This document shows positions 32,190 to 61,215 of a DNA stretch of 64,000 bases, piece by piece; within the stretch, counting starts at the first letter, position 1; each line of letters opens with the position of its first letter. The stretch lies in the NCBI GenBank assembly GCA_947444305.1, contig CANEZP010000001.1, positions 330,151 to 394,150 on the forward strand. The letters run 5' to 3'. The notes below the pieces were generated by a model that did no database searches, was not told where the DNA came from, and saw nothing but the letters and a program-made list of their open reading frames with translations. The translations under genes and the position numbers were made by a program. Source of the stretch: Pseudobdellovibrionaceae bacterium (GTDB lineage Bacteria; Bdellovibrionota; Bdellovibrionia; Bdellovibrionales; UBA1609).

Positions 32190-33244
32190 GATCAATCACT
32201 TATGCACAAGCCATTCGTGAAGCCACCGAAATTGCGATGGATCAAGATCCGAACGTAATATGCCTTGGCCTCGGAGTTGATGATCCTAAAGGTATTTTCG
32301 GAACAACTTTAGGACTCAAGGAAAAGTTCGGTGGTGATCGAGTTTTCGATATGCCTACGTCCGAAGCGGCGATGACGGGTATTGCCCTCGGCGCCTCGCT
32401 TAACGGTATACGGCCGCTCATGACCCATCAACGGCTTGATTTTTTCCTGCTCACTATGGATCAGATCGTTAACAACGCCGCAAAATGGAACTACATGTTC
32501 GGCGGGAACAGTAGTCCGATGAGCTTGGTCGCCCGATTGATTCTTGGCAGGGGTTGGGGGCAGGGGCCCACTCATTCGCAAAGCCTGCAGTCCTGGTTTG
32601 CGCATATTCCAGGCCTCAAGGTCGTCATGCCGACCTTCCCGGCCGACGCCAAAGGGCTGTTGCTCAGTAGTTTGTTCGACGGCAGTCCGGTGATGTTCCT
32701 CGAACATAGATGGCTGCATAATACGGTGGGTGATGTTCCGGCCGGTGATTTTCGTACACCGATCGGAAAAGCTCAAATTGTTAAAGAAGGTACGGACCTG
32801 ACCGTCGTCGCGTATTCGTACATGACCGTCGAATGTCTGCAAGCGATCACTCTGCTGGAAGCCAACGGCATATCCGTCGAATTGATCGATTTGAAAAGCA
32901 TCCGTCCGTTGGATTGGGATACCGTGCTGAAATCCGTGCGAAAGACGGGCCGCCTGCTTGCGGCCGACACTTCCAATGCAATGTGTTCCGTAGCGAGCGA
33001 AATCGTTGCGACGGTCACGAGCGAATGTTTTGACGAATTGAAAACGGCGCCACGGCGACTTACCTTGCCGGATTTTCCTGCGCCGACCAGCCCTGCGCTT
33101 ACGAAGGATTTCTATCCGCGTGCCGAAGACGTGGCGCGAATCATCGGTGAAATGATGGATAAAAAGCTGGATGTATCTGAAATCGTAAAAGCTCGAAAAT
33201 CACCGCATGACGTACCGGGCGATTGGTTTAAAGGTCCTTTTTAA
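32186..33244 (+). CDS. ThDP-dependent 2-oxoacid dehydrogenase E1-like, beta subunit
   Basis: A 352-residue E1-beta/transketolase-pyrimidine-domain protein. SEAAMTGIALGASLNGIRPLM holds the catalytic Glu that activates thiamine diphosphate, HSQSLQSWFAHIPGLKVVMP is the family signature, and a C-terminal transketolase-like domain follows (about 200-330). The start codon is TTG at 32186, overlapping the alpha stop by four bases (TTGA), so synthesis of the two subunits is coupled. Together they should form an alpha2-beta2 E1. Confidence 0.88.
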   Translation: MRSITYAQAIREATEIAMDQDPNVICLGLGVDDPKGIFGTTLGLKEKFGGDRVFDMPTSEAAMTGIALGASLNGIRPLMTHQRLDFFLLTMDQIVNNAAKWNYMFGGNSSPMSLVARLILGRGWGQGPTHSQSLQSWFAHIPGLKVVMPTFPADAKGLLLSSLFDGSPVMFLEHRWLHNTVGDVPAGDFRTPIGKAQIVKEGTDLTVVAYSYMTVECLQAITLLEANGISVELIDLKSIRPLDWDTVLKSVRKTGRLLAADTSNAMCSVASEIVATVTSECFDELKTAPRRLTLPDFPAPTSPALTKDFYPRAEDVARIIGEMMDKKLDVSEIVKARKSPHDVPGDWFKGPF

Positions 33245-34944: not shown

Positions 34945-36738
34945 ATGAAACTATCGGACTACGTCGCCCAATTTCTTGTGGAGCAAAAGGTAAAGCATGT
35001 TTTTGCGGTTGCCGGCGGAGCGTGCCTTCATCTGATTGACTCCATCGCCGAGACCGAAGGAATCGAATATATCTGTCCGCACCACGAACAAGCGGGTGCG
35101 ATGGCGGCGGAGGCCTACGCGAGAATTTCAAACAATCTCGGCGTTGCAATCGCCACGAGTGGACCGGGGGCGACCAATCTTATCACCGGCATTTGTTGTG
35201 CCTATTATGATTCTATTCCGGTTCTATACATCTCCGGACAGGTTTCAACGTTTAGGTTCCGCGGGACAACCGGTGTAAGGCAATTAGGATTTCAAGAAAC
35301 CGATATCGTGGAGATGTGCAAATCCATAACGAAGTACGCGGTCCTGGTAAGCGATCCTAAGAGAATTCGATATGAATTAGAGAAGGCGGTTCACCTTGCC
35401 AAAACGGGGCGTCCCGGGCCGGTGTTGGTTGATATACCGGATAATTTGCAGCGCGAAGATATCGATCCCGATAAGCTTGAAGCATTTAAACCTGAGATCA
35501 AAGACCGAAACAAATCTTTGCCAATACTGAAAGAGCAGGTAGCTCGAACGATCGAACTGCTCAAGGCGGCTTCGCGCCCGGTGGTTGTTTATGGCCTTGG
35601 AATCCGCTTGGCCAATGCCGTGCATTTGGCCGCAGAGCTCCTTAATGAAATCAATCTCCCGGTTACCCCAACCTGGGGCGCGGTCGATATGCTTGGCGCC
35701 CATCCAAAAAACTTCGTAGGCACCTTCGGAATTCATGGAACTCGGTATGGAAATTTCGCGATTCAAAACGCCGATTTGGTGATCAGTATCGGTTCCAGGT
35801 TAGACACGCACGAGACGGGTTCGCCGCTATCGACGTTCGCACGTGAAGCAAAAAAAGTCGTGGTCGATATCGATCCCGCCGAATTAGGAAAATTCGAGGT
35901 TTTCGGCATGCCGACGGATTTGTTAATCGAAGCCGACGCCAATGATTTCCTATCCCTTCTCGTCGCCGGAATTAAAAAAGAAACCTTCGGTGACTACAAG
36001 GATTGGTGGCTCAAAATACGTAGCTGGCAGGACAAGTTCAGTATTTGTCCGCCCCAGCTTTTTACGAAAAAAATGTTAGACCCCTACGTATTTATGAAAC
36101 GGATGTCACAGCTGGCCGGTGATACGGAAACGATCGTCATCGACACCGGGTGTGCAGTTGCCTGGTTTATGCAAGCGTTCGAACCGAAGCCTGGTCAGCG
36201 AATATTCAGTGATCTAAATAACACGGCTATGGGTTACGCTTTACCCGCCGCGATCGGCGCTTATTTTGCGAGCGGGAAACCTGTGACCTGTATCATCGGT
36301 GACGGTGGCCTAATGATGAACGTCCAAGAGCTTTCTACGATCGCAAAACATAATATTCCGATAAAGATATTCGTCGTTAACAATCACGGCTACAGCATGA
36401 TTCAGCAAACTCAAGAGCAGTGGCTAGGTGGAAGATTGCACGCATCATCCGACCAAGGCGGGCTTGCTTTCCCGAATTTTGTTGAGCTGGCCGAAGCGCA
36501 CGGAATCAAAGGTTTGAGAATCTCAACGAACGCTGAAATTGACGAAAACTTCAAAACCGTCTTCGCTCTGAACGCGCCGGTTCTTATCGATGTAGATATC
36601 GAGTCGACCGAGCGGGTGATTCCGCAATGTAAGTATGGTCGACCGATCGAAGATTCCGAGCCCTTGATAAAGCGTGCGGACTTCTTCGAAGCGATGATCG
36701 TGAAAGCTATGGACGCTTCCAGCGATGGACCGGCCTAA
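34945..36738 (+). CDS. Acetolactate-synthase-like ThDP enzyme (first copy)
   Basis: A 597-residue three-domain ThDP enzyme. Catalytic Glu in CPHHEQAGAMAAEAYA (about residue 51), central domain (about 190-330), and the ThDP motif GDGGLMMN followed by VNNHGYSM. It resembles IlvB-type synthases, but the locus has no branched-chain amino-acid genes or IlvN subunit. Known relatives in O-antigen clusters include YerE, which adds a two-carbon unit from pyruvate to a CDP-keto-dideoxy sugar to form yersiniose. A carboligase on a keto sugar is therefore plausible but unproven. It is paralogous to the protein at 47432 (shared blocks HHEQ.. and LAK.GRPGPV). Confidence 0.88.
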   Translation: MKLSDYVAQFLVEQKVKHVFAVAGGACLHLIDSIAETEGIEYICPHHEQAGAMAAEAYARISNNLGVAIATSGPGATNLITGICCAYYDSIPVLYISGQVSTFRFRGTTGVRQLGFQETDIVEMCKSITKYAVLVSDPKRIRYELEKAVHLAKTGRPGPVLVDIPDNLQREDIDPDKLEAFKPEIKDRNKSLPILKEQVARTIELLKAASRPVVVYGLGIRLANAVHLAAELLNEINLPVTPTWGAVDMLGAHPKNFVGTFGIHGTRYGNFAIQNADLVISIGSRLDTHETGSPLSTFAREAKKVVVDIDPAELGKFEVFGMPTDLLIEADANDFLSLLVAGIKKETFGDYKDWWLKIRSWQDKFSICPPQLFTKKMLDPYVFMKRMSQLAGDTETIVIDTGCAVAWFMQAFEPKPGQRIFSDLNNTAMGYALPAAIGAYFASGKPVTCIIGDGGLMMNVQELSTIAKHNIPIKIFVVNNHGYSMIQQTQEQWLGGRLHASSDQGGLAFPNFVELAEAHGIKGLRISTNAEIDENFKTVFALNAPVLIDVDIESTERVIPQCKYGRPIEDSEPLIKRADFFEAMIVKAMDASSDGPA

Positions 36739-40272: not shown

Positions 40273-41352
40273 TTACCGAATTAAATTCCATCGCAGTGTT
40301 TTTTCAGTCGCTTGTTCTAGAGAAGTCCAAGCTTCCAGACCAAGCTCGCGGGCGGCCGATGTGGACGGCACATAGCGTGAAGGTTTATGTTCAGGATCGG
40401 CCTTCATCGCAACGGAAACGGGATTATCGAGACTCCTTCGCGACGGCATGACTTTCAGCCCTGTTTGATGAATTACCTGCGCCAGTTGTGCAATTGAATA
40501 ATCGATTTCTGAGCCTACATTGTATGCTCTGCCTTGCTCGCCCTTTGTAAGGAGAACCATCAGCCAGATAACCAAATCGGCCGCGTACATATAAGAGCGT
40601 ACAACCGTGCCGTCGCCTTGAATACGAATTGGTTCATCGCGAAGTACGTTCAACAAGAAATTTCCCGCCGCGAAATGGGTGTCCATTGGCAAGTAAGCAC
40701 CGATAAATGCAAAGCACCGTGGTACCGACAAATGGAAAGGGCGCGTCCGTGCTTCGCTAGCGCAAAGGAACTCGGCCGCCCGCTTAGCCTCACCATAGGC
40801 GGATTTTGGGTGAAGTGGGTCTGGCGCGCCGGGATAATTTTCCGGCACGCGGGGTAAACTCGAAGGCTGTTGTCCGTACACGCCGCCGGAACTAATGAAT
40901 TGGAAGTTTTGGCACTGAGCCGATTTGGCGATATCTAAGACGTTTTTCGTGCCGGCAACGATGCTATCAAACATTTCATTTGGCCGGTTTTCATTTAGGT
41001 CAGCGCTCGCAGCCGCAGCTCCATGGATGATCGTAGAGTATTTTTCGGAGGTCTTAAAATCTCGTATATCGCCTTGGATCATCTTAACTTTGGAATCGAG
41101 CCAAGGACATGATTTGCGGGCTCGGTCAGAGTTTCGGGTTACGAGAGTCAGATTATTCCCATTAGGCCAACGCTCCTCGGCCGCGAGCAGCGCTTGGGTG
41201 AGCCATTTTCCGAAGAAGCCAGTGCCGCCGGTGAGCAATATGGCTTGATTTCGGAAGGTCTGGTGTAATCCGAACTGCTCCCACTTCTCCAAAATGAATT
41301 TCTTATCTTCGGGCAAAATGGGTGCGTTAGGATCCGGTTTGAAGTCAGGCAT
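40273..41352 (-). CDS. NAD-dependent nucleotide-sugar epimerase/dehydratase
   Basis: A 359-residue extended SDR. After about 35 N-terminal residues comes LLTGGTGFFGKWL (cofactor loop), then FISSGGVYG and SAYGEAKRAAE (Tyr-x-x-x-Lys intact), and RSYMYAADLVIWL. The layout fits RmlB/GalE-type enzymes. It is a single minus-strand gene between the wzt remnant and the aldolase gene and has its own promoter. The substrate is unknown. Confidence 0.85.
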   Translation of the reverse strand: MPDFKPDPNAPILPEDKKFILEKWEQFGLHQTFRNQAILLTGGTGFFGKWLTQALLAAEERWPNGNNLTLVTRNSDRARKSCPWLDSKVKMIQGDIRDFKTSEKYSTIIHGAAAASADLNENRPNEMFDSIVAGTKNVLDIAKSAQCQNFQFISSGGVYGQQPSSLPRVPENYPGAPDPLHPKSAYGEAKRAAEFLCASEARTRPFHLSVPRCFAFIGAYLPMDTHFAAGNFLLNVLRDEPIRIQGDGTVVRSYMYAADLVIWLMVLLTKGEQGRAYNVGSEIDYSIAQLAQVIHQTGLKVMPSRRSLDNPVSVAMKADPEHKPSRYVPSTSAARELGLEAWTSLEQATEKTLRWNLIR

Positions 41353-41502: not shown

Positions 41503-42345
41503 ATGAATCAGATGGAACGGAAGATGGTCGATTGTCTTAAGGACTTGCGCGACAACCATTCGGTGATTGGCGTAAAGATGGAGTTCGAAGCCGAAGGAAC
41601 TCGTATTGAAGAAGCTATGCGGTTGAAAGAAGTCAGCATGGCCGCTGGCTTGACCCTAACGACGAAAGTCGGCGGCTGCGAAGCCGTAAAAGATATGTTC
41701 GACGCCGGTGCGCTTGGTACTCGCTACCTTGTTGGACCTATGGTCGAATCCGCTTATGCACTGAAAAAATTTATTCAGGCGACTCGCATCGCTTTTCCCC
41801 ATGATTTGCATAGCGAGATGGATTTTTACATTAATCTCGAAACAATCACCGCGATTAAAAACTTTGATGAGATGTTAGAAACTCCAGAAGCTAAAGAGCT
41901 CGACGGAATCGTGCTCGGACGTGTCGACTTGACGGGTTCGATGAATCTGAACCGTGACTCGGTAAACTCAAAAGAGGTTTTAGACATTTGTTTGAGCATG
42001 GCGGCCAAGGCTAAAGCTAAAGGCAAAAAAGTAATTGTCGGTGGCGCTGTCTCCGTTCATTCGATGCCTTTTTTCCAAGCTTTCCCTAAAGATCACCTTG
42101 ATAAATTTGAAACCCGAAAAATAGTATTCGGTTGTCCGGGTGCTCTTCAGAACAAAGAAGCCGCTTTTCTAAAAGCTGTGGAATTTGAATTGATGTGGCT
42201 CAAAAATAAGAAGAATTTTTACGGCGCGATTTATTCCGAGGATGACAACCGGCTAAAAATGATGGAAGAGCGTTACCGCGGTTCAATCGACAAAAATTCA
42301 AATGGATCTGGCGGAAATTCGAACGCAAATCTTCGCGGCGATTAA
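41503..42345 (+). CDS. HpcH/HpaI-like aldolase
   Basis: A 280-residue protein of the HpcH/HpaI aldolase/citrate-lyase type, class II metal-dependent aldolases that form or break bonds between a pyruvate-like unit and an aldehyde. VGVKMEFEAEGT-type N-terminus, TTKVGGCEAVKDMFDAG, VGPMVESAYALKKF, YINLETI and LGRVDLTGSM are visible; Glu and Asp residues in these blocks are the likely metal ligands. The tail (last 20 residues) is Asn/Gly/Ser-rich and disordered. In this locus it may build a higher-carbon keto sugar (inference). Confidence 0.8.
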   Translation: MNQMERKMVDCLKDLRDNHSVIGVKMEFEAEGTRIEEAMRLKEVSMAAGLTLTTKVGGCEAVKDMFDAGALGTRYLVGPMVESAYALKKFIQATRIAFPHDLHSEMDFYINLETITAIKNFDEMLETPEAKELDGIVLGRVDLTGSMNLNRDSVNSKEVLDICLSMAAKAKAKGKKVIVGGAVSVHSMPFFQAFPKDHLDKFETRKIVFGCPGALQNKEAAFLKAVEFELMWLKNKKNFYGAIYSEDDNRLKMMEERYRGSIDKNSNGSGGNSNANLRGD

Positions 42346-42361: not shown

Positions 42362-43930
42362 ATGTTTACAAAAATTAGACGGACGGCTTGGGCCGTGCTT
42401 TTTGGCATGGCCATCGTTTCGTCTGTCTGGAACCTAACTGCAGATTCTCATCCAACCTTAGCTGGGCTGGGACGTTCTGTTCGATTAAGCATTCAGCATC
42501 GATCTTCTTTTAATACTAAAAAAATACCGCTGCCCAAAAATGATTCGGCCAAATCGTACTTCGTTAATTCCGGTGAAGTAGCACCCGTTATACCCAGCGA
42601 AATTCTACAGCGCGATACTTCATTTTATGATCTCGCGATTACCAAGTGGAAACTACCGTTCCTTTCTGATTCTGGTGTTTCGGGTCCATTTGTAATCCTC
42701 GATGAAGGCGAATTTTTATTTTTAAGTCGCTGTGGAAAATTATCGGTCGTAAAGCAATCCAATGGTCAAATGGCGCTTTTGCTGCAGCGAGACTTACCCT
42801 TTCAATCCGAAATCTATTGTGAGGATGTAAACGGAATTCCCCTGACCGGAGTCAAGGGTATGCATTTCATTAGGGATGAGAATACTCTTCTCGTTAGCCA
42901 TCATGTAATGGCTAGCGAAAACTGCGTGGCTTTGCGGATTTCAAAAGTGCACCTTGATCTAAATGATCTTACCTCACGTGACCGCGAAATCATCTTTGAA
43001 AGCAAACCTTGTTTACCAAAAGATCAAGTTGTCTACACCCAAGCCGGTGGCGTCTTTACCGAAGATCAAAAGCGCAAGCGCATCTACTTCTCCGTCGGAG
43101 ATTTTGGTCCCCTACATAATGCTCAAGACTATTCTAAATCGTACGGAAACATCTGGTTCTATGATCGAAATAAGAACGTTTCTTACAGAATCGCTATGGG
43201 GGCGCGGAATGCGCAGGGTCTGGACTATGATGCCAGGACAAATACCCTGTTTGAATCAGAGCATGGCCCAAAAGGCGGGGACGAAATCAATGTCGTAAAT
43301 TACGGCGATAATTTTGGGTGGCCCCGATCAAGTTACGGCATTGACTATAGTTTTATCGCCGAGACGAAGTCTTACGATGGACGGTTCGGTCGTCATTCGT
43401 TCGGTGAAAAACCGGAATATGTGTTCTTTCCTTCAGAAGCGATTACGGGGATGAGAATATATCCACGTTCGCCTTATTTTGAAAGTTGGAATGATGACCT
43501 GATTCTTGCTTCCTTAAAAGGGAACACAATCTTTCGGCTTAAGACGGACAAAAAGAAAATAGTTTATGCCGAGCCAGTCGCTAATTTAAAAGAGAGATTA
43601 CGGACCGTTGAGATTTCTCAGCAAGGAATCATCTACGTTAAAGCGGATCCAGACTTCTTTTTCGAAATGAAAATCGCAAGTGATACAGTTTATGATCAAA
43701 AAAACTATGGTAAAGAGCTAGCCGGCGGTTGCGTCGGATGTCATACGGGTGCCGTGGGTGCAGCTGCGCCTAATTTGTACGGTCAAAAGGAAGAGCATTT
43801 TTTAAGAAACATGCGATTGTTTGCAAGCGGAGAACGGAAAAACGAAAACATGAATTCAATCGCGAAAGCGTTGAACGAGCGAAAACGAATCGCCTTAGCA
43901 AAATACTTTTCTTCCGCACATAAAATATAA
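42362..43930 (+). CDS. Membrane-anchored glucose/sorbosone-dehydrogenase-like protein with C-terminal cytochrome c motif
   Basis: A 522-residue exported protein. The N-terminal hydrophobic segment (about 9-27) is a signal peptide or anchor. The central part (about 100-440) is a beta-propeller of the soluble PQQ sugar-dehydrogenase (GSDH) family: ARNAQGLDYD, then SEHGPKGGDEINVV and GDNFGWP are its strongest signature. Near the C-terminus, GGCVGCHTG is a CxxCH haem-c site, though a distal Met is uncertain. The enzyme would oxidise a sugar in the periplasm and pass electrons to its own haem. Its place inside a glycan locus, 16 bases after the aldolase gene, is unusual. PQQ dependence is assumed from the family. 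Confidence 0.82.
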   Translation: MFTKIRRTAWAVLFGMAIVSSVWNLTADSHPTLAGLGRSVRLSIQHRSSFNTKKIPLPKNDSAKSYFVNSGEVAPVIPSEILQRDTSFYDLAITKWKLPFLSDSGVSGPFVILDEGEFLFLSRCGKLSVVKQSNGQMALLLQRDLPFQSEIYCEDVNGIPLTGVKGMHFIRDENTLLVSHHVMASENCVALRISKVHLDLNDLTSRDREIIFESKPCLPKDQVVYTQAGGVFTEDQKRKRIYFSVGDFGPLHNAQDYSKSYGNIWFYDRNKNVSYRIAMGARNAQGLDYDARTNTLFESEHGPKGGDEINVVNYGDNFGWPRSSYGIDYSFIAETKSYDGRFGRHSFGEKPEYVFFPSEAITGMRIYPRSPYFESWNDDLILASLKGNTIFRLKTDKKKIVYAEPVANLKERLRTVEISQQGIIYVKADPDFFFEMKIASDTVYDQKNYGKELAGGCVGCHTGAVGAAAPNLYGQKEEHFLRNMRLFASGERKNENMNSIAKALNERKRIALAKYFSSAHKI

Positions 43931-43953: not shown

Positions 43954-45135
43954 TTGGAATTTAATCTTGATCTATTTCAGTACAATCCTGCGAAACCATA
44001 TTATATTTATTGTCCCCCCCTTAAAATTCACTCGGCCGGGGTTTCAGTCTTGCACCGTCTATGTCACTTATTGAACCGTGCGGGGTTTCCAGCTTTTTTA
44101 GTCATTGAGCGGGATATGTTAGGAAATTTTGGCTATCCCGCATTCCCGGGCAGTTCATCTTTGATTACACCAGTGTTGACAACTGAAATGGCTGAACAGC
44201 ACTTTGCCGAAGGTAAAACACCGATCGTCATTTATCCGGATTCGGTCAAAGGTCGACCTCTAGAGAGTGGCCTAACCGTAATTTACCTCTTGAACTACCT
44301 TGGGCTTCTCGGTGGTGAGGACAAATTCAGTGACGATGCTCTCTACTTCTCGTACAGCAAGAAAATCGCCGATACTAGTCCGTCTCCTGGCAATATCCTC
44401 TTCATGCCGATATCAGATCCGAACGTTTTCTACCCGCCCCCCGTACCGGCTCAAAGGCGCGGAAAATGTTTTTGGGCGGCGAAATACCGGCACTTTCATA
44501 ATCAAAGCGTTGGCCCAGAGGTAGACGGTGCAACCGAGATTACGCGCGACAGGCCCGACAGCCATACCAAAGCGGAACTCAGAGAGCTATTTCAGACCTC
44601 GGAGTTATTCTATTGCTATGAAAATTCAGCGCTAGCGATCGAAGCTGCACTGTGCGGTTGTCCGGTGGTATTCGTGCCAAATCCATATTTCAAAGAGGTT
44701 ATTGCTGATCATGAACTTGGCCAGTCCGGATTGGCGTGGGGTTTCGACCCGCTGGAGATTCAGCGCGCCGTCAGCGATGTGCATAAATTTAGAGATCGCT
44801 ATATTGAGAGTCTGAGCAAGCTTGAGATACAGCTGAAAGATTTCGTTTCGATCACGCAAGCGAGAGCAGATGAAGTCCCTTACAATAAGATAATTAATCT
44901 TGAGAAAACACTCTTGGTTTTCGGTTACGAAAGTCTTTTTCCGCTTAGGTGGTTATTTTTGCTTCAACGCTGGAATCGCGTGGCCGAGTCTCAGGGTAAA
45001 AAGGCGGCCTTTAGAAAGTCGGTTAAATATCTTTTGATTCGAAGTGGTGTGTGGAAGTTCCTGGGTCCTGTGCTGAATCTATTTAGAACAGTACGAGATT
45101 GGATAAAAACAAAACTAAGAGGGGCTAGTGCTTAA
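43954..45135 (+). CDS. Putative GT-B-like glycosyltransferase, paralogue A
   Basis: A 393-residue soluble protein with a TTG start (43954) preceded by AGGAAAGG. The C-terminal half has ALAIEAALCGCPVVFVPNP, the sort of Glu-containing nucleotide-sugar loop found in GT-B enzymes. It shares a string of blocks with the convergent gene at 45115: an N-terminal IYCPPLKIHSAGVSVLHRL region, YPDSVKGRPL, LGLLGGED, EITRDRPDSHTKAELRELF, and LGQSGLAWG. The two genes are therefore duplicates facing each other, their 3' ends overlapping by 21 bases. The sugar specificity is unknown. Confidence 0.7.
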   Translation: MEFNLDLFQYNPAKPYYIYCPPLKIHSAGVSVLHRLCHLLNRAGFPAFLVIERDMLGNFGYPAFPGSSSLITPVLTTEMAEQHFAEGKTPIVIYPDSVKGRPLESGLTVIYLLNYLGLLGGEDKFSDDALYFSYSKKIADTSPSPGNILFMPISDPNVFYPPPVPAQRRGKCFWAAKYRHFHNQSVGPEVDGATEITRDRPDSHTKAELRELFQTSELFYCYENSALAIEAALCGCPVVFVPNPYFKEVIADHELGQSGLAWGFDPLEIQRAVSDVHKFRDRYIESLSKLEIQLKDFVSITQARADEVPYNKIINLEKTLLVFGYESLFPLRWLFLLQRWNRVAESQGKKAAFRKSVKYLLIRSGVWKFLGPVLNLFRTVRDWIKTKLRGASA

Positions 45136-46290
45136 TTCAATCGATCTGTTATTGCCCGCGATTTGTGGTTTCACAAACGGGCTTGCTTCAATCTTTTGCG
45201 AATAATCCACAAGGTACTTCAGTTGGTTTTTATATTCGGCTTCCCAAACCGCGAGTCTCTCTTGGAGCTCGATGGGCTGGAACGGTTCCTTGGGCGCGCC
45301 ATTTGCTCCCCAAAGGATGCCGCTGGTTCCAAGTTCTAGCTTTTGATAGTCTTCCCAAGTTTGAGTTCCGTCCGGAATTACAATGACATGGCAACCACAA
45401 AGCAGTGCTTCATAAATCAGAGCGGTGCTGTTGTCGAAGCAGTAAAGCACCTTCGCGGCACGAAAAATTTTTCCCAGCTCACTTTTTGGAGGAGTATTTC
45501 TAGTGATTTCTAGAGTTGTCTTGGGATCGAAAACCCCGTCCTTGTAGCGAGACTTACCAACGTAATAACAAGTTAGGGCCCGGGGCTCGTCGTTCTCCGG
45601 CGGGAAGAATATCGTCCTATCAATCGTCGGCATATACAGTTTGCCCTGAATCTTGTTTTTTAAGTACGGAGCAAAAACCTCTGAATATACGAAAACGTGT
45701 TCACTTTCGGGATAGACTTCATCACCGCCCAGCAGTCCCGGTTTGTTGAGAGTCCAACGAATTACATTTCGGGCTTTGAGTGGGTTGCCGTTGATGATCT
45801 CGGGATAGATGACCCAAGCACCGTTTTTTGCAGCCTCGCGAGCTTGCTTGGTTGAGATAAGAGGTACGGGATATTTAGGATTACCACGTTGGCTACCTGT
45901 AATGGCGGCTTCAAATCCGGATTTCTTTAAATCGGCGGCGAGTTGATATAGACAACAAATACCCGCCGAGTTGCCTATAAAGTCCGGCGCGATGACGATA
46001 TAATCGGGTCGACGCGAAATCCTTACTTTTGATTCCTCAGCTTCTAAAAAATCGGTGAGCTCAAGCATCATCTGGTGGATGCCCGGCAACACCAGGGACT
46101 TAATGGTTCGTTTCATCCCCAACGCGAAACCCCAGTAGCGAATATATCCGGGGAGGGTGCTCAAGCCCTTTTTAAAAAAGAGAATCCATTTTGTTAAGCC
46201 CTCAAGGCGTCTGCGCAATTTTCTCATCGATATGCCCCAAAGAAACCAGACTTTAAACGCCTCGTCAATTACGGCCTTTTCAGGCCTCAA
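45115..46290 (-). CDS. Putative GT-B-like glycosyltransferase, paralogue B
   Basis: A 391-residue protein related to the convergent gene at 43954: IVIAPDFIGNSAGICCLYQL, YPEIINGNPLKARN, PGLLGGDE, EITRNTPPKSELGKIF, ALIYEALLCGCHVIVIPDG, LGTSGILWG. It carries about 75 extra N-terminal basic and hydrophobic residues. The start at 46290 overlaps the upstream PhyH stop (ATGA), so the two are coupled; an internal Met at residue 22 is an alternative. Probably acts on the same glycan as its paralogue. Confidence 0.7.
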   Translation of the reverse strand: MRPEKAVIDEAFKVWFLWGISMRKLRRRLEGLTKWILFFKKGLSTLPGYIRYWGFALGMKRTIKSLVLPGIHQMMLELTDFLEAEESKVRISRRPDYIVIAPDFIGNSAGICCLYQLAADLKKSGFEAAITGSQRGNPKYPVPLISTKQAREAAKNGAWVIYPEIINGNPLKARNVIRWTLNKPGLLGGDEVYPESEHVFVYSEVFAPYLKNKIQGKLYMPTIDRTIFFPPENDEPRALTCYYVGKSRYKDGVFDPKTTLEITRNTPPKSELGKIFRAAKVLYCFDNSTALIYEALLCGCHVIVIPDGTQTWEDYQKLELGTSGILWGANGAPKEPFQPIELQERLAVWEAEYKNQLKYLVDYSQKIEASPFVKPQIAGNNRSIELSTSPS

Positions 46291-47309
46291 TTCAAGAAGC
46301 GGTGCTCACGATAACTGTCGTTTTTTAGACGACTGCAAACGTCGACGGCTTCCGAGGAATTAAGCGGCGCCAGTCCGTCAAAGGTCTTTGGATCTATGAT
46401 GTCTTCCACGCGTAGCGATCTTAGAAACTCCGTCTGCTTCAAGATGGCCGGCGATTGAGAGGCCATCACGCATGGGCCATAGTAGTGCGGTAGCTTGAAA
46501 TCCCGCATCTCGTAGAGCGCAATGCGGCGCATTTCTGCCATTTCCAACTCTCCATTTTGGATCTGAGGTTGGGAGCGTAGATCGGCGCAAAAATGCAGGC
46601 CGAACAATCTCCGCTGCTTCGCTGAGATGGGCGCATTTACACAATGAACCAAATTGTGATTAAAAATAATGACGTCGCCAGGACGGCTATCGACTTTCAC
46701 ATAAGGGATATTCTCGTTTTGCCCGATGATCTTCGGATTATTTCCCATCCCAAACCGTCTTTTCTCATCAAATCCGCCAAGAACAGGCGGCTCTGGCCAG
46801 GTTAACGCAGCGGTGAGATAGGAGGAGAACGTATCGTCGACGAAGTGACTGCCGGGGATAGCGCAGAAAGGGCCTCCATCCATTTTATTATGCTCTAAAT
46901 AGACAAGCATCTTCATACTCTTGGTGCGAACAAGATAGTCCCGATGCCAAGGAGAACCTTCGACGAACATATTTCCGTCGCTACCTTTGTAGATATAATT
47001 TTCTCCACAAAACTTCTGCGCCAAATCGACTACCTTTGGATTCTCTAAAAGAGCCGTTAGCTTTGCGCTGGAATCCGCGAATTGCGGATAGAAATAGGGC
47101 CGGTTTTTTAATAACTGTCCGTATTTCTCAGCCATCATTCGATCGAATTCGTGACCGATCCACTTCACTTCATCTTTAAAATATCCGGGAAGTTTTACGA
47201 ACCCGAAAGTATCGAAGAGATTTACGTGCTCTTGCGTTGCTTCGGCAACACTTGGGCGGGGCCGGATTGCTTTCCCAACCATTCGCCTAGCTTTTCTATA
47301 AATTCCCAT
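46287..47309 (-). CDS. PhyH-family Fe(II)/2-oxoglutarate dioxygenase
   Basis: A 340-residue protein of the phytanoyl-CoA dioxygenase family. WHRDYLVRT gives the His-x-Asp metal pair, PFCAIPGSHF the core strand, and NHNLVHCVNAP the second His. These enzymes hydroxylate carbon centres using iron and 2-oxoglutarate. An AAGGAG ribosome-binding site lies about 10 bases before the ATG. In a glycan locus it could hydroxylate a deoxy or acyl carbon of an unusual sugar or substituent (inference). It diverges from the ThDP-enzyme operon at 47432. Confidence 0.85.
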   Translation of the reverse strand: MGIYRKARRMVGKAIRPRPSVAEATQEHVNLFDTFGFVKLPGYFKDEVKWIGHEFDRMMAEKYGQLLKNRPYFYPQFADSSAKLTALLENPKVVDLAQKFCGENYIYKGSDGNMFVEGSPWHRDYLVRTKSMKMLVYLEHNKMDGGPFCAIPGSHFVDDTFSSYLTAALTWPEPPVLGGFDEKRRFGMGNNPKIIGQNENIPYVKVDSRPGDVIIFNHNLVHCVNAPISAKQRRLFGLHFCADLRSQPQIQNGELEMAEMRRIALYEMRDFKLPHYYGPCVMASQSPAILKQTEFLRSLRVEDIIDPKTFDGLAPLNSSEAVDVCSRLKNDSYREHRFLN

Positions 47310-47431: not shown

Positions 47432-49252
47432 ATGAAACGCGTAGCCGATGTGGTCGCTGACCTCTTAGTAGAAAATGGCGTGCAGCACGTCTTCATGGTG
47501 ACCGGGGGCGGTGCGATGCATCTGAACGATGCCCTTGGACGCCACTCAGGTCTGCAATACGTGGCCTGCCATCATGAGCAAACCTGCGCCATGGCCGCCG
47601 ATGCTTACTATCGTCTGAATCGCCGGTTGGCTTGCGTGAACGTGACCACCGGTCCCGGCGGTACGAACGCAATTACCGGGGTCTTCGGCGCTTGGACCGA
47701 TAGCATCGGAATGGTCGTCGTTTCGGGCCAGGTGAAATGGGAAACGCTCGTCCGGGGCACCGACCTACCTTTGCGTCAATTGGGCGATCAAGAAATCGAT
47801 ATCATCAAGGTGGTCGAGCCGATCACCAAATACTCGGTCATCATTAAAGATCCAAAATCAATCCGCTACCACGTTGAAAAAGCTCTTTACCTCGCCAAAA
47901 ACGGCCGCCCGGGCCCCGTTTGGATCGACGTTCCGATCGATATTCAGGCCACGCCGGTCGAATTCTCCGAGCTTAAGGGTTTCGATCCCGTCGCCGAAGG
48001 CTTCGAGAAGAAATCGTCGGAGTTAACCACGCAGATGAAGGATGTGCTTGAGAGGATCCAAAAAGCCGAGCGCCCGGTCGTCATGGTCGGCGGCGGGATT
48101 CGCGTGTCGGGAACGCACAAGGAGTTTATCCGCGCGATTGAGAAGTTGCAGATTCCGGTAACGACCTGCTGGAACGCGCACGACGTGCTTTGGGACGATC
48201 ACCCACTTTACGCGGGTCGCCCCGGTTCGATCGGAACACGCGCGGGGAACTTTACCGTGCAGAATTCCGATTGCGTTCTGATCTTGGGAAGCCGGCTGAA
48301 CATCCGCCAAGTCAGCTACAACTTCAAAGCCTTCGCTCCGCGTGCGCATAAAATTATGGTCGATATCGACGAAGCCGAGATGAAAAAGCCGACGCTCGCA
48401 ATTGATACCCGCGTGCATGCCGATCTAAAAGATTTCTTCGCTGAACTCGAAACCGCCGACTATAAACCCAATCCCGCGCACGCAAAGTGGGTGAGCTGGT
48501 GTAAAGAGCGGGTCACGAAATATCCGGCGGTAATGCCCGAGTATTGGGAAGGTAAAGACAACGTCAATCCCTACTGTTTCGCGGATTCACTCTTCAAAAA
48601 TTTGAACGAGGACGACTGGGTCGTTACCGGCGACGGCACGGCTTGCGTCGTTAGTTTTCAGGCCGCAAAGCTCAAAAAAGGCCAACGGCTATTTACTAAC
48701 TCCGGTTGCGCCTCGATGGGCTTCGACATACCGGCGGCCATCGGCGCGTACTTCGCCGGCCCGCCGAAAAAACTGGTCTGCATCGCCGGCGACGGCAGCA
48801 TTCAAATGAATCTTCAGGATCTGCAAACGATCAAGTCCCACGGTATGCCCGTTAAGCTGTTCGTACTGAACAACCGCGGCTACCATTCCATCCGCCAGAC
48901 GCAACATAACTTTTTTAACGGCAACGTCGTCGGCTGCGGTGAAGAGAGCGGATTGTCTTTTCCCGATATGGAGAAGATCGCATTTGCTTACGGAATCCCT
49001 TTCCGGCGCATTAGCCAACACGGTGAGCTCGGGCAAATCGCGGATGTTTTGAAAGCCGACGGGCTACAGATCTGCGAGATTATGCTCGACCTTAAGCAGG
49101 CGTTCGCGCCAAGATTGTCGTCGCGCAAACTTGAAGACGGCCGGATGGTGACGGCGCCGCTCGAAGACATGTTTCCATTTCTCGATCGCAAAGAATTACA
49201 AGAAAATATGTTTTACCCGATCGCGGTCAACGAAGCGGAGAAGCCGAAGTGA
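47432..49252 (+). CDS. Acetolactate-synthase-like ThDP enzyme (second copy)
   Basis: A 606-residue three-domain ThDP enzyme, full length. Catalytic Glu in CHHEQTCAMAADAYYR, GPGGTNAITGVFGAW, and the ThDP motif GDGSIQMN followed by LNNRGYHS. It is paralogous to the protein at 34945 but clearly different, with a TGGGAMHLNDALG N-terminus. Candidate roles are carboligation onto a keto sugar (as YerE does) or C-C cleavage of a cyclic dione (as IolD does); its operon partners, an SDR and a sugar-phosphate-cyclase-like enzyme, leave both open. GGAG lies 11 bases before the ATG. Its stop overlaps the SDR start (GTGA). Confidence 0.87.
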   Translation: MKRVADVVADLLVENGVQHVFMVTGGGAMHLNDALGRHSGLQYVACHHEQTCAMAADAYYRLNRRLACVNVTTGPGGTNAITGVFGAWTDSIGMVVVSGQVKWETLVRGTDLPLRQLGDQEIDIIKVVEPITKYSVIIKDPKSIRYHVEKALYLAKNGRPGPVWIDVPIDIQATPVEFSELKGFDPVAEGFEKKSSELTTQMKDVLERIQKAERPVVMVGGGIRVSGTHKEFIRAIEKLQIPVTTCWNAHDVLWDDHPLYAGRPGSIGTRAGNFTVQNSDCVLILGSRLNIRQVSYNFKAFAPRAHKIMVDIDEAEMKKPTLAIDTRVHADLKDFFAELETADYKPNPAHAKWVSWCKERVTKYPAVMPEYWEGKDNVNPYCFADSLFKNLNEDDWVVTGDGTACVVSFQAAKLKKGQRLFTNSGCASMGFDIPAAIGAYFAGPPKKLVCIAGDGSIQMNLQDLQTIKSHGMPVKLFVLNNRGYHSIRQTQHNFFNGNVVGCGEESGLSFPDMEKIAFAYGIPFRRISQHGELGQIADVLKADGLQICEIMLDLKQAFAPRLSSRKLEDGRMVTAPLEDMFPFLDRKELQENMFYPIAVNEAEKPK

Positions 49253-49911
49253 GCAAGCGGGTTTTAATCACCGGCGGTTCGCGGGGCATCGGTCAGCAGA
49301 TTGCGAAACTGATGGAAGCGAAGGGCTACGAAGTCGTCGTGCCCAAGCGGGAAGAGCTCAATCTCGAATCGTTAGAGAGCATCGACAAATATTTTGCGAG
49401 TGAACGCAAGATCGACATCTTAATTAATAATGCCGGCATTAACTTCATTTCGCCTTTGCCCGACATCGCGACCGAACAATGGTCGCAAATGTTGACGGTC
49501 AATTTGACCGCGCCGATGAAGCTCGTGCAAAAGGTTATCCCGCACATGCAGAAGACAAAGTGGGGGAGGATCGTGAACATTAGTTCGATCTTCTCTAATC
49601 TTACCCGGCAGGGGCGGGCTTCTTACTCGGCTTCGAAGTCGGGTTTGAACGGCCTGACCCGCACGGCCGCGGTCGAGTTGGGTCAGCACGGCATCCTGGT
49701 CAATGCGGTTTGCCCCGGCTACGTTGAAACGCAACTCACCCACCAGAACAACTCACCCGCGGATATCGAGAAGATTCTAAAAACGATTCCCGTCGGGCGG
49801 ATGGCCCAGCCCGCAGAAATTGCCGAGCTGGTTGAATTTCTGTGCTCGGAACGTAATTCGTATATCACCGGTCAGATGATCACCGCCGACGGCGGCTTTT
49901 CAATACAGTAG
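49249..49911 (+). CDS. FabG-like short-chain dehydrogenase/reductase
   Basis: A 220-residue classical SDR. ITGGSRGIGQQIAKLM binds NAD(P), NNAGIN is conserved, and the catalytic Ser-Tyr-Lys set lies in NISSIFSN and YSASKSGLNG. GTG start at 49249 overlaps the ThDP-enzyme stop. The protein is slightly short for the family but complete. Likely reduces or oxidises an intermediate between the ThDP enzyme and the cyclase-like enzyme of the same operon; it is not expected to serve fatty-acid synthesis here. Confidence 0.87.
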   Translation: MSKRVLITGGSRGIGQQIAKLMEAKGYEVVVPKREELNLESLESIDKYFASERKIDILINNAGINFISPLPDIATEQWSQMLTVNLTAPMKLVQKVIPHMQKTKWGRIVNISSIFSNLTRQGRASYSASKSGLNGLTRTAAVELGQHGILVNAVCPGYVETQLTHQNNSPADIEKILKTIPVGRMAQPAEIAELVEFLCSERNSYITGQMITADGGFSIQ

Positions 49912-49919
49912 GATTTGCG

Positions 49920-50978
49920 ATGGAAATCAAAAGCTCGGCCCGAACCTATTCCGTTCAATTTGCTAAGGACTTTGCGGAATCCGTGGAGGAAGCGTCGCTG
50001 ATCCCGAACGCCTTTACGGTCATCGACGCGAACGTAAACCGGCTTTACGGTGAGATTATAAAAACTCACCTGAAAGGCCCGATTTTAGAAATCACCGCCG
50101 TCGAAGAAAACAAGACGTACGAAAAAACGGGTGAGTATATCCGGCAGCTGCTCGAGATGGGCATCCGCAAAAACAATCAACTGATCGTGATCGGCGGCGG
50201 GATAGTCCAGGATATCGGCGCGTTCATGGCGTCGGTCTTGTTCCGCGGAATTGAATACACATTGTTGCCAACGACGTTACTGGCCCAGTGTGACAGCTGC
50301 ATCGGCAGCAAAAGTTCGATGAATATCGCCAACTACAAAAATCAGTTGGGAACTTTCAACCCGCCTACGCAAGTTTTGGTTGCGACTTCGGTACTCGATA
50401 CTCTTTCAAAGCAAGATCTTCGCTCCGGAGTTTGCGAAGCGCTTAAGCTCGCCATGATCGAAAGCCGCGAAGCCGCGTTGCAAATGGGTGGGACCTTAGA
50501 TGCGGGCCTTAATAGCGAAGCCCTTGAGGCTACCGTAAAGCAGGCTTTGGCGATCAAAAAAGTTTACATCGAGGAAGATGAATTCGATAAAGGCCGGCGT
50601 AACCTGTTGAACTACGGGCACACCTTCGGGCATGCGTTCGAAAGTAAATCCGGTTACAAAATTCCTCACGGCATCGCCGTGGGTATCGGGATGATCGCGG
50701 CAAATTATTTTTCCTGGAAACTCGGGATGATCACCGAAACCGAATTTGTCGAGGCCCGTGATCTTATGTCACCCTGGACAAAAGAGTTTATGCCCGAGCT
50801 GACGCAGCTTAAAGTTGAAGACCTTCTGGGCGCGATGAAGAACGACAAGAAAAGCTCCGCGGGGCAAATCGGTTTCATTCTTACGCGCGGTTTCGGTAAA
50901 ATGGAGCGCTCATTTTTGCCGTTCGAAGAAGCCGAACAACTCCTGCGCAGCTGGTTAGCTAGTCTTAAGACGGCGTAG
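49920..50978 (+). CDS. Sugar-phosphate cyclase-like (3-dehydroquinate-synthase family) enzyme
   Basis: A 352-residue protein of the dehydroquinate synthase superfamily. VIGGGIVQDIGAFMASV binds NAD; the metal ligands appear as Glu in GVCEALKLAMI, His in NYGHTFGHAFES, and His in PHGIAVGIGM. The signature normally GGKTG(I/V)N is GSKSSMN here, so it differs from housekeeping AroB and may be a divergent cyclase. Family members make carbocycles (dehydroquinate, deoxy-scyllo-inosose, valiolones) from sugar phosphates. Placed 8 bases after the SDR in a ThDP/SDR/cyclase operon, it suggests a carbocyclic unit in the glycan. Overlaps the convergent acyltransferase by 24 bases. Confidence 0.82.
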   Translation: MEIKSSARTYSVQFAKDFAESVEEASLIPNAFTVIDANVNRLYGEIIKTHLKGPILEITAVEENKTYEKTGEYIRQLLEMGIRKNNQLIVIGGGIVQDIGAFMASVLFRGIEYTLLPTTLLAQCDSCIGSKSSMNIANYKNQLGTFNPPTQVLVATSVLDTLSKQDLRSGVCEALKLAMIESREAALQMGGTLDAGLNSEALEATVKQALAIKKVYIEEDEFDKGRRNLLNYGHTFGHAFESKSGYKIPHGIAVGIGMIAANYFSWKLGMITETEFVEARDLMSPWTKEFMPELTQLKVEDLLGAMKNDKKSSAGQIGFILTRGFGKMERSFLPFEEAEQLLRSWLASLKTA

Positions 50979-58019: not shown

Positions 58020-58082
58020 AGCTGATGACTCGGTGAGTTGGCTATGTGAATACATGGGGCACCTGTGGTTATATCCTCGGCC

Positions 58083-59399
58083 ATGAGAGACAATGTAATA
58101 GAGGCAAGTAGGAATTATTTCCGCTCCTTGCCCCCGCGCCAAATCCGCCCCGGCCAAGATTACATTCCCGTATCGGGAAAAGTTTTGGACGAAAATGACT
58201 TAGTAAACCTCGTCGAATCCTCTTTGGATATGTGGCTGACCGCCGGTCGCTTCGGTGATGAGTTCGAGAAGAAATTCGCCGAATTCATGGACCGCAAGTA
58301 TTGCCTGTTGGTCAACTCCGGCTCGAGCGCGAATTTGGTGGCGTTCAGCGCGCTAACTTCGCCCTTACTCGGGGCCAAGCGTGTGCAACCAGGTGACGAA
58401 GTCATCACGGTGGCCGCGGGCTTCCCAACGACCGTCAACCCCATCATTCAAAACGGCTGCGTGCCGGTTTTTATTGATGTTGAAATGGGAACCTACCAGG
58501 TCGACATCTCGCGGTTGGAAGAAGCGCTTTCCCCAAAGACCAAAGCGGTGATGATCGCCCACACATTGGGTAATGTGTTTCAGGTGCGCGAGATTAAGGA
58601 CTTCTGCAAAAAGCATAATCTTTGGCTAGTTGAGGACTGCTGCGATGCTTTGGGCGCTTCGTACGAAGGACAAAAAGTCGGAACCTATGCCGATCTGGCG
58701 ACGGTGAGTTTTTATCCCGCACATCACATCACTATGGGTGAAGGTGGCGCGGTGGTTACCTCAAGCCCGGTGCTCAAACGTGCGGCGGAAAGTATGCGCG
58801 ATTGGGGCCGCGACTGCTGGTGTCCGCCCGGCAAAGACAACACTTGTCAAAAACGCTACAACTGGTCGTTGGGCACTTTGCCAAAAGGCTACGATCATAA
58901 GTACACGTACTCGCATGTCGGCTACAACTTGAAGGTGACCGATATGCAGGCCGCGATCGGCGTTTCGCAATTGGCTAAAGTCGACCAGTTTATCGAAAAG
59001 CGCCGTAAGAATTTTGATTACCTCTACGAAAAGCTTGCTCCGTTGGAGAAAGAATTGATTCTTCCCCGCGCGACCGCCGGCTGTGAACCTTCTTGGTTCG
59101 GTTTTCCGATCACAGTTAAGAGCGATTCCAAGGTCACTCGCAACGAATTGGTCAAGCATCTTGAAGCGAAGAAGATCGGTACGCGTTTGTTGTTCGCCGG
59201 AAATTTAATCAAGCAACCGGCATACGCCAACGTGAATTACCGCGTTGTCGGTGGTCTTGAAAATACCGACACGATTATGAACGACACCTTCTGGGTCGGT
59301 GTTTGGCCCGGTCTCGGTGAAGAGCAATTAGATTACGTTGTTCAGCATATCACCGAAGCGGTGAAAAATGGCATACCGGTCACAGGGGGAGCAAAGTGA
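58083..59399 (+). CDS. ddhC: CDP-4-dehydro-6-deoxyglucose 3-dehydrase (E1)
   Basis: About 438 residues. The PMP/[2Fe-2S] enzyme that removes the C3 hydroxyl of CDP-4-keto-6-deoxyglucose. In [14 protein letters not shown] a His replaces the PLP lysine of aminotransferases, the hallmark of RfbH/AscC. The iron-sulfur cysteines fit the known C-x57-C-x-C-x7-C pattern: one in VEDCCDAL, then CWC and the Cys of DNTC. ATG 58083 matches the family start; the frame is open to GTG 58065. Overlaps ddhA by four bases. The usual reductase partner (AscD/DdhD) is not in the window. Confidence 0.96.
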
Positions 59400-60163
59400 A
59401 AGTAGCCATTCTTGCCGGGGGACACGGCACTCGGTTGTCTGAAGAAACGGAAATGAAACCAAAGCCCATGGTCGAAATCGGCGGCAAACCGATTTTATGG
59501 CACATCATGCAGCACTATTACAAAGCGGGCTTCGATGATTTCGTCATCTTAGGTGGCTACAAGTGCTTCATGATCAAAGAATTTTTCGTCAACTATCCGC
59601 TGCACAATAGTGACGTGGTCGTTAACGCTTCAAAGAATGAGCTTACTTTCTCGAATAACCAATCCGAAAAGTGGCGCGTGACCGTACTCGATACCGGATT
59701 GAACACGATGACCGGCGGACGTATTAAGCGCGCCCAAAAGCAATTGGGCGACGCCCCATTTATGGTGACCTACGGCGACGGTGTTTGCGACGTCGATTTG
59801 AAATCACTCATCAAGTTTCATCAGGATAAAAAAGCAATCGCCACCTTAACCGCGATTCAGCCCGAAGCGCGCTTCGGCGTAATTCAGTTTTCGGAGACCG
59901 ATCAAGTCGTACAGTTTGCCGAAAAACCTAAGGGTGAAGGCTCGTGGATCAACGGCGGCTTCTTCGTTTGCGAACCTGAGATTTTCAAATACCTAGACAA
60001 CGACGAAACGATTTTCGAGCGGGCGCCGCTTGAGCGCTTGGCCGAAAAAGGCAAGCTCTTCGCTTACCGTCACGACGGCTTCTGGAAATGCATGGACACT
60101 CTGCGTGACAAGCAACAGCTGCAAGCGCTTTGGGATCAAGGTGAAGCTCCTTGGCTGGCCTAG
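59396..60163 (+). CDS. ddhA: Glucose-1-phosphate cytidylyltransferase
   Basis: A 255-residue nucleotidyltransferase forming CDP-glucose, first step of the CDP-3,6-dideoxyhexose pathway. [20 protein letters not shown] is the signature; [22 protein letters not shown] and [15 protein letters not shown] are specific to this group (RfbF/AscA). GTG start at 59396 overlapping ddhC (GTGA), and the end overlaps ddhB by 13 bases. The order C-A-B differs from the A-B-C order usual in Yersinia and Salmonella. Confidence 0.97.
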
Positions 60164-61215
60164 ATCCTAAAATCTGGCAGGGCAAAAACGTTTTCCTGAC
60201 CGGCCACACCGGTTTCAAAGGCACGTGGCTCGCGCAAGTGCTTCAGGGCTTCGAAGCGAAAACGCATGGCTACGCCCTCGCGCCCGACACTAAACCGAGC
60301 CACTTCGAAGTTTTGAAGTGGGGCGGCATGACCAGCGAGTTTGCCGACATCCGCGAGCACAAAGCGTTAACGGCCTCGATGCAAAAAGCCGCTCCCGAAG
60401 TGGTTTTCCACCTCGCTGCGCAACCGCTCGTTTTGAAATCATACGAAGATCCACGCGACACTTACGAAACCAACGTGATGGGTACGTTAAATCTGCTCGA
60501 AGCGGTGAGGGCAACGCCTTCCGTTCGTGCGGTCATCATCGTCACTTCCGATAAGTGCTACGAAAACAAAGAAACGACCCGGCCCTACAAAGAAGACGAC
60601 TCGATGGGTGGCTACGACCCTTATTCCTCTTCTAAAGGTTGCGCCGAGATTTTGACCGCGAGCTACCGCCGCAGCTACTTTTCCGAAACAGATTACGGCA
60701 AAAAGCATAATGTTTTGGTGGCGTCGGTGCGTGCCGGCAACGTGATCGGTGGCGGGGATTGGTCCGAAAACCGTTTGATCCCCGATTTCGCGCGCGCGTT
60801 TCGTGGCGGTAAGAAGGTCACGATCCGCAGTCCCGAAGCCGTTCGTCCCTGGCAGCATGTCTTAGACCCGATCGCCGGTTATCTTCTGCTGGCCGAAAAA
60901 TTATTGGCCGGCAAAAAAGAATTCGCCCGCGCCTTTAACTTCGGACCTTCGCCCGACGGGTGCTGGACCGTTCGCCAGATTTTAGAGCAAGCCAAAAAAA
61001 TCTGGCCCGAATTCGATTACGTGATCGAGGACGCCGGCCGGCACGAAGCCAAGCTCTTGATGCTCGATTCCTCGCTCGCGCACAATGAACTCGATTGGCG
61101 CCCTCGCATGAACGTTGAGCAGGCTTTAAAGTGGACCATGGAGTGGTACAAAGACTACATCCGTGAAGGCAAAGTCGATACCTCGGCGCAGATTGCGCAA
61201 TATCTAAAACTCTAA
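60151..61215 (+). CDS. ddhB: CDP-glucose 4,6-dehydratase
   Basis: A 354-residue extended SDR, second step of the CDP-3,6-dideoxyhexose pathway. LTGHTGFKGTWLAQVL is the cofactor loop unique to this enzyme, HLAAQPLVLKSYEDP and TSDKCYEN follow, and YDPYSSSKGCAE holds Tyr-x-x-x-Lys. TTG start at 60151 within the end of ddhA. Its TAA stop interlocks with the TAG stop of the convergent GT gene (CTAA at 61212-61215). Confidence 0.97.
   Translation: MAGLDPKIWQGKNVFLTGHTGFKGTWLAQVLQGFEAKTHGYALAPDTKPSHFEVLKWGGMTSEFADIREHKALTASMQKAAPEVVFHLAAQPLVLKSYEDPRDTYETNVMGTLNLLEAVRATPSVRAVIIVTSDKCYENKETTRPYKEDDSMGGYDPYSSSKGCAEILTASYRRSYFSETDYGKKHNVLVASVRAGNVIGGGDWSENRLIPDFARAFRGGKKVTIRSPEAVRPWQHVLDPIAGYLLLAEKLLAGKKEFARAFNFGPSPDGCWTVRQILEQAKKIWPEFDYVIEDAGRHEAKLLMLDSSLAHNELDWRPRMNVEQALKWTMEWYKDYIREGKVDTSAQIAQYLKL

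Follow-up and report, generated by a model that had tools for sequence, protein, structure and literature searches.

Within a 64,000-nucleotide stretch of contig CANEZP010000001.1 (positions 330,151 to 394,150; assembly GCA_947444305.1) from a Pseudobdellovibrionaceae bacterium, hereafter called the window, we examined an operon that encodes a thiamine diphosphate (ThDP)-dependent carboligase, a short-chain dehydrogenase/reductase (SDR) and a TIGR04425-type cyclase related to the 3-dehydroquinate (DHQ) synthase AroB (Table 1). We tentatively read this operon as the section of a pathway that adds the carbon branch and closes the ring of an unusual nucleotide sugar for a cell-surface glycan, a reading that we favor with some reserve. 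With a little more reserve, we suggest that a relative of DHQ synthase could here act on a C-branched nucleotide sugar: the ThDP enzyme would build a look-alike of 3-deoxy-D-arabino-heptulosonate 7-phosphate (DAHP) on C4 of a cytidine diphosphate (CDP)-3,6-dideoxyhexose, which the cyclase would turn into a carbocyclic, quinate-like ring.

The operon and its recurrence across phyla

The ThDP and SDR genes share the bases GTGA at 49249-49252, which hold the stop of the former and the start of the latter, and 8 bases (gatttgcg) lie between the SDR stop codon TAG and the ATG of the cyclase gene. These coordinates and letters bear out the coupling of the three genes claimed in a first-pass annotation of this DNA, which had read carboligase, reductase and cyclase as working together within a glycan locus. 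That reading of the core trio proved right on re-analysis; the CDP-3,6-dideoxyhexose genes and the aldolase of the same window, however, had been overlooked.

Eighty loci fetched by cyclase alignment, together with loci from whole genomes, gave 57 loci of the cyclase clade and 22 AroB loci; the seed loci were picked by cyclase similarity, and the counts below assume independent loci, an assumption that does not fully hold. A YerE-like ThDP gene was found nearby in 27 of the 57 clade loci and in none of the 22 AroB loci (Fisher p = 2.8e-5), and ddhA was found in 20 and none of them, respectively. Since the ThDP-SDR-cyclase grouping also recurs in many phyla, we conclude that it is not due to chance. 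Within the cyclase clade, HpcH-type aldolases (9/27 versus 1/30), DmpG-like proteins (8 versus 0), FGGY kinases (9 versus 1) and ddhC (10 versus 3) were commoner in loci with a ThDP gene than in those without one, whereas GmhA-like isomerases occurred in 16 of the loci without a ThDP gene and in none of the ThDP loci. Three non-homologous kinds of protein serve as makers of 2-oxo-3-deoxy acids in the 27 ThDP loci, namely the HpcH type (9 loci), a protein nearest to 4-hydroxy-2-oxovalerate aldolase (DmpG-like; 8 loci) and a NeuB/SpsE-like synthase (2 loci), and two of them were never found together. No acid maker was present in the DNA covered for the remaining 8 ThDP loci, several of which are on short contigs.

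In L013, which belongs to the same phylum but to a different family, these genes make up a single operon that reads ddhA-ddhB-ddhC-epimerase-ThDP-HpcH-SDR-cyclase (30-71% identity to the window genes). L103 carries ddhA-ddhB-ddhC-HpcH-SDR-cyclase with the ThDP gene nearby, and variant gene sets occur in L014, L103, L104 and L105. Cultured carriers include Methylomonas sp. WSC-7 (L060) and Clostridium thailandense (L035). At 10620-12962 of L103, between its ThDP gene and its cyclase part, lies a gene whose product has a Toxin_15 (ShET2 N-terminal) domain. In a group of sister loci a GmhA-like isomerase is combined with an SDR and a TIGR04425 cyclase (L012, L016, L017, L019, L020, L022-L026, L029, L030, L039 and L047), often along with a Gfo/Idh oxidoreductase, a KdsB-like cytidylyltransferase and a 2-hydroxyacid dehydrogenase, and we take these loci to make a product other than that of the ThDP loci. 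True members of the cyclase family were present in only 3 of 148 relatives (L003, L004/L013 and L006/L014), and the locus is therefore accessory; the other weak matches among these relatives did not have the marker residues Q97 and C127 described below. Samples of Burkholderiaceae and Alphaproteobacteria gave 3 matches each. In a plasmid collection the cyclase query found mostly genes annotated as aroB or unannotated, with no match above 35.5% identity, and the ThDP query gave no match at 1e-110.

Ten of 297 Mycobacterium genomes carried a ThDP gene of the M. ahvazicum type (L054), the other nine being 76-89% identical to that of L054. The mycobacterial locus is syntenic, with ddhB-ddhC, ddhA, a GT2 gene and the ThDP gene followed by a variable tail: HpcH-SDR-cyclase-FGGY (L054, L120, L121, L122 and L127), SDR-cyclase-FGGY (L119), NeuB (L123 and L126), HpcH and then a HAD-like protein (L124), or HpcH alone (L125). 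The SDR-cyclase-FGGY cassette is present in six of these loci and absent from four, and its presence or absence behind a conserved ThDP gene lets us read it as an optional cassette for later tailoring, which is our strongest reason for placing the cyclase after the ThDP step. The exchange of HpcH and NeuB within one syntenic locus indicates that the acid maker can be replaced in place.

Assignment of the cyclase and the ThDP enzyme

The window cyclase matches TIGR04425 (AroB-related putative sugar phosphate phospholyase, cyclizing) over nearly its full length (model positions 1-331 of 348), slightly below the cut-off (395.7 bits; cut-off 400), which is passed by two relatives from the same phylum and the same clade. 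TIGR04425 is itself a hypothetical equivalog, and the family name brings no tested function. Against the AroB model TIGR01357 the cyclase scored 258.6 bits, below the cut-off of 305, a threshold that is weak evidence by itself because the housekeeping AroB copy of the same genome falls below it as well (235.5 bits).

In a tree of 82 sequences, a branch with 100/99 support separated all 55 TIGR04425-like cyclases from AroB, 2-deoxy-scyllo-inosose (DOI) synthase (DOIS), 2-epi-5-epi-valiolone synthase (EEVS) and desmethyl-4-deoxygadusol synthase (DDGS); the window cyclase thus falls outside all four. One other AroB-family gene is present in the genome, on contig 5 (G000:C5:64225-65190), where it has a normal loop (GGKTA) and directly adjoins a gene resembling that of 5-enolpyruvylshikimate-3-phosphate (EPSP) synthase (aroA). 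The earlier suggestion that the window cyclase is not the housekeeping AroB is upheld by this second aroB beside aroA and by the tree position. A second AroB-family gene was also found in 12 of 12 other genomes checked that carry clade cyclases, 10 of which have one above the AroB cut-off. Conserved residues set the clade apart: Q97 and L210 are invariant, C127 is found in 54 of the 55 sequences and lysine or arginine at position 214 in 52, and Q97, C127, L210 and K214 are each unlike the usual AroB residue.

The cyclase resembles AroB in its fold and in all 13 catalytic positions of DHQ synthase, which are kept in the alignment (13/13), and differs from it in its separate clade, its score under the AroB cut-off and its gene context. 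We take these positions, with the numbering and roles that we assign to them, to be R130, D146, K152, N162, E194, K197, K250, R264, N268, H271, H275, H287 and K356 of the A. nidulans enzyme. The metal-binding glutamate and two histidine blocks pointed out in the first-pass annotation are present as E173, H234 and H250. Its argument from the GSKSS loop is weak: the motif is there (C127-I-G-S-K-S-S133), but the loop varies within the family (GSKSS, GGKTS, GAKSS and GGKCG) while the catalytic residues stay constant, and we rejected the motif as proof of a non-AroB function. At K250, R264, N268, H275 and K356 the window cyclase has K, R, N, H and K, whereas the comparison sequences taken from the PDB have M, R, D, P and K (EEVS, 4p53), M, D, A, P and L (DDGS, 5tpr) and K, G, E, H and K (DOIS, 2d2x). 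Because the 13 DHQ-synthase residues are kept, unlike in DOIS, EEVS and DDGS, the substrate of the cyclase is likely DAHP-like, and sedoheptulose-7-phosphate and glucose-6-phosphate are unlikely substrates.

The solved structures nearest to the ThDP enzyme are JanthE (8rph; 415 bits) and then 5ahk (252 bits), with true acetohydroxyacid synthase (AHAS) lower; JanthE leads the next structure by about 160 bits. The enzyme is 63% identical to its counterpart in L013 and 61% to that in L015, and by sequence it appears to be a YerE-like lyase of the ketone-accepting kind. Its GDG motif stands against CDG in JanthE (PMC12247030). In the ThDP tree, two separate lineages pair with the cyclase; the exact position of JanthE is unsure in this tree, which has long branches. 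An assignment of the gene as acetolactate synthase (AHAS) was rejected, since the product scored 357 bits against TIGR00118 (cut-off 538) and JanthE is nearest, only two AHAS-family members are present in the whole genome, both inside the window, neither of them above the cut-off, and a whole-genome search for ilvC gave nothing beyond a 67-position fragment match. By this gene content, a pathway to branched-chain amino acids is apparently missing from the organism.

Proposed route and competing explanations

We infer the substrates, the order of the steps and the product from the gene set and its association, both of which are observed. Family assignment supports the formation of CDP-4-keto-3,6-dideoxyglucose by DdhA, DdhB and DdhC. 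An HpcH-type aldolase would form a 2-oxo-3-deoxy acid from pyruvate and a polyhydroxy aldehyde, the latter probably being a tetrose or its 4-phosphate. The window aldolase, which we propose as the source of this donor, is 71% identical to the product of the gene between the ThDP and SDR genes in L013, its metal ligands Glu (NxET) and Asp (GRVD) are invariant among 12 relatives, and its match to the 2-keto-3-deoxy sugar aldolase YfaU is weak (E 0.006). By analogy with its relatives, the ThDP enzyme is proposed to decarboxylate the 2-oxo acid and to transfer the resulting acyl chain to the keto group at C4 of the CDP-sugar, in the same way as in the formation of caryophyllose and erwiniose. The branched intermediate, sugar-CO-CH2-(CHOH)3-CH2-OP, would be DAHP with a sugar in place of the carboxylate, and its phosphate would come from the FGGY kinase where this is present and otherwise, as in the window, be brought by the aldehyde. 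Through the steps of an AroB-like reaction (summarised for AroB in PMC7144000), that is transient oxidation, loss of phosphate and intramolecular aldol addition, the cyclase would give a cyclohexanone C-C-linked to the sugar. The SDR, which adjoins the cyclase in nearly all clade loci and keeps the S...YxxxK triad in 37 of 37 relatives, is proposed to reduce the ring ketone, and the end product would be a 4-C-(polyhydroxycyclohexyl)-3,6-dideoxyhexose.

The branching half of this route follows known pathways. YerE-like enzymes are described in PMC12247030 as a decarboxylase subclass that uses isolated ketones; YerE transfers an acyl unit onto CDP-3,6-dideoxy-4-keto-glucose, the preferred substrates of ErwE and MMAR_2332 are hydroxylated 2-oxo acids, and caryophyllose is the sugar to which MMAR_2332 has been assigned. 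The ThDP enzyme of the window is of the same YerE-like kind as those of yersiniose and erwiniose (YerE and ErwE) and JanthE, and a keto-sugar acceptor is expected for it; the passages of PMC12247030 consulted mention no AroB-like cyclase with YerE, ErwE or JanthE. In caryophyllose, from the lipooligosaccharide of M. marinum, the YerE-like enzyme MMAR_2332 is associated with a long C4 branch on a 3,6-dideoxyhexose: the sugar is a 3,6-dideoxy-4-C-(tetrahydroxyhexyl)-hexopyranose with a C6 chain at C4 (PMC5706390), the branch length expected from a C7 2-oxo-3-deoxy acid, which supports the acid-donor model. The mycobacterial loci found here, with ddhA/B/C, the ThDP gene and mostly an aldolase, resemble this caryophyllose-type pathway. 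The caryophyllose branch is acyclic, however, whereas the window and 6 of the 10 mycobacterial loci additionally carry the AroB-like cyclase and the SDR.

Several observations weigh against the proposed route. K250 and R264, which we presume to contact the carboxylate of DAHP, are constant throughout the clade although the proposed substrate has no carboxylate; they might hold another anion, for example the diphosphate of CDP. The pathway genes of the window are spread out: the aldolase gene lies upstream of the operon by 5 kb and ddhABC lie downstream of it by 7 kb, and near the operon we saw no FGGY kinase. The GmhA-SDR-cyclase loci, which have no ThDP gene, form a nested part of the cyclase clade, and L119 has a cyclase but no aldolase in view. 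The conserved residues, including the presumed carboxylate binders, and the GmhA-type loci, with cyclase and SDR but no ThDP gene, would both suit a serious rival explanation that we nevertheless consider rather unlikely, in which the cyclase and SDR turn a free 2-oxo-3-deoxy acid phosphate, an isomer of DAHP, into a quinate-like cyclitol acid placed on the glycan; the branched sugar made by the ThDP enzyme would then be a separate compound. Against it, the HpcH and DmpG-like aldolases and the FGGY kinase track the ThDP gene and not the cyclase, the Mycobacterium cyclase cassette stands behind the ThDP gene at one locus, and the three genes are tightly coupled in the window.

Carbocyclic O-antigen sugars have been on record since 1996 (caryose) and 2011 (bradyrhizose), and they resemble the proposed product in carrying a carbocycle on what appears, by our own mapping, to be a C4-branched 6-deoxyhexose; they differ in that their ring is fused. 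Caryose is a 4,8-cyclo-3,9-dideoxynonose (PMC9026286), and bradyrhizose closes its rings via OH-4, -5 or -9 (PMC9912281); formally, we can map both to a 4-keto-6-deoxyhexose with a C3/C4 branch at C4 joined to C5. The AroB-like enzyme might in this manner close the ThDP-added branch onto C5 of the hexose, and the bradyrhizose O-antigen does require a glucose 4,6-dehydratase-like gene within an 11-gene cluster (PMC4743980). We nevertheless judge a fused ring improbable, since AroB chemistry closes within one phosphorylated, ketone-ended chain and closure onto C5 needs a ketone there; the bradyrhizose genes themselves were called not known in 2016 (PMC4743980). Still less credible to us is a reading of the cyclase as either a redundant 3-dehydroquinate synthase or a paralogue in decay, by which the ThDP enzyme and SDR alone matter and make a yersiniose- or caryophyllose-like sugar without a carbocycle. 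The full DHQ-synthase active site and the acyclic caryophyllose known from mycobacteria are in keeping with this, but a housekeeping aroB is present elsewhere in the genome, the clade is deeply separate with its own conserved Q97, C127, L210 and K214, and its ThDP/SDR neighbors are kept across phyla in a context in which AroB-clade genes were never found (0/22). Very improbable as the product is an EEVS/valiolone-type C7 cyclitol or a cyclitol like 2-deoxy-scyllo-inosose: the enzymes that make these belong to the same superfamily and the GmhA-like isomerases of related loci handle heptose phosphates, yet DOIS, EEVS and DDGS lie outside the cyclase clade, their changes at K250, R264, N268, H275 or K356 are absent from the window cyclase, and no isomerase of the GmhA kind adjoins the window operon. 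We rejected EEVS/DOIS-type chemistry on the tree position and the catalytic residues.

The branched, ring-closed nucleotide sugar that we favor would combine a branching half of an already known kind (YerE/caryophyllose) with an AroB-like cyclase partner that is apparently new, with a chance of new chemistry; among the open-access papers searched, none made use of TIGR04425 or connected a ThDP enzyme with an AroB-like cyclase. If correct, it would give the hypothetical NCBI family TIGR04425 its first function, and many bacterial phyla, some mycobacteria among them, would share a general and modular way of making surface sugars that bear a carbocycle. It offers a specific gene set, comprising ddhABC, a YerE-like ThDP enzyme, a 2-oxo-3-deoxy-acid aldolase, an SDR and a TIGR04425 cyclase, sometimes with an FGGY kinase. 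The ordered mechanism and the naturally paired loci, of which one has the cyclase cassette and the other lacks it, make the question testable by assay and nuclear magnetic resonance.

Other genes of the window

Table 1. Operon genes and further candidate pathway genes, in window coordinates.
Feature	Coordinates	Strand	Basis
NAD-dependent epimerase/dehydratase-family protein, possible sugar ketoreductase	40273..41352	-	Pfam Epimerase
HpcH/HpaI-like aldolase	41503..42345	+	Pfam HpcH_HpaI 30.8 bits (cut-off 25)
Putative glycosyltransferase, possibly dedicated to the sugar	43954..45135	+	no Pfam/NCBIfam match
Second putative glycosyltransferase of the same family	45115..46290	-	28% identical to the 43954-45135 protein
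ThDP-dependent carboligase, YerE/JanthE-like, 606 aa	47432..49252	+	Pfam TPP_enzyme_N/M/C; JanthE 8rph nearest structure
SDR-family ketoreductase, 220 aa, GTG start	49249..49911	+	Pfam adh_short/adh_short_C2
AroB-related cyclase, TIGR04425 type, 352 aa	49920..50978	+	Pfam DHQ_synthase + DHQS_C
ddhC/rfbH, CDP-4-keto-6-deoxyglucose 3-dehydratase type	58065..59399	+	NF011936 RfbH 737.9 bits (cut-off 423)
ddhA/rfbF, glucose-1-phosphate cytidylyltransferase	59396..60163	+	TIGR02623 361.8 bits (cut-off 300)
ddhB/rfbG, CDP-glucose 4,6-dehydratase	60151..61215	+	TIGR02622 465.8 bits (cut-off 278)

The GC content is about 46-52% at 24001-60000 of the window and about 54% upstream, and this part is likely an acquired glycan island. 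Homologues of the epimerase-family protein (36-40% identity) are found near the ThDP gene in L013, L061, L075, L078 and L105. The two putative glycosyltransferases, whose family is covered by no Pfam or NCBIfam model, are candidates for a new glycosyltransferase family: an alignment-based AlphaFold2 model of the first (weak, predicted template modelling score 0.61) matches GT-B enzymes, two of its relatives stand directly behind the cluster in L104, and relatives of the second lie near the cluster in L045. A PhyH-like (phytanoyl-CoA-dioxygenase-like) gene at 46287-47309, divergent from the operon, was dropped as a part of the pathway because none of its relatives lie near other cyclase loci.

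A second JanthE-like ThDP enzyme is encoded at 34945-36738, again with 8rph and 5ahk as the nearest structures, and is followed by a zinc-alcohol dehydrogenase and a GmhA-like SIS protein; this gene group probably makes a second branched sugar. Two adjacent genes within the glycan island (31194-33244) encode an E1-alpha/E1-beta dehydrogenase pair. Two-subunit ThDP enzymes of this sort (alphaKADH2) also form branched sugars in antibiotics (PMC12247030), and the island may hold three carbon-branching systems. An HldE-like protein at 26970-28496, with cytidylyltransferase-like and PfkB domains, heads the same glycan stretch and suggests heptose activation. Amid the sugar genes, at 42362-43930, lies a gene for a protein that resembles glucose/sorbosone dehydrogenases and carries a haem-type motif, CVGCH, in its C-terminal part.

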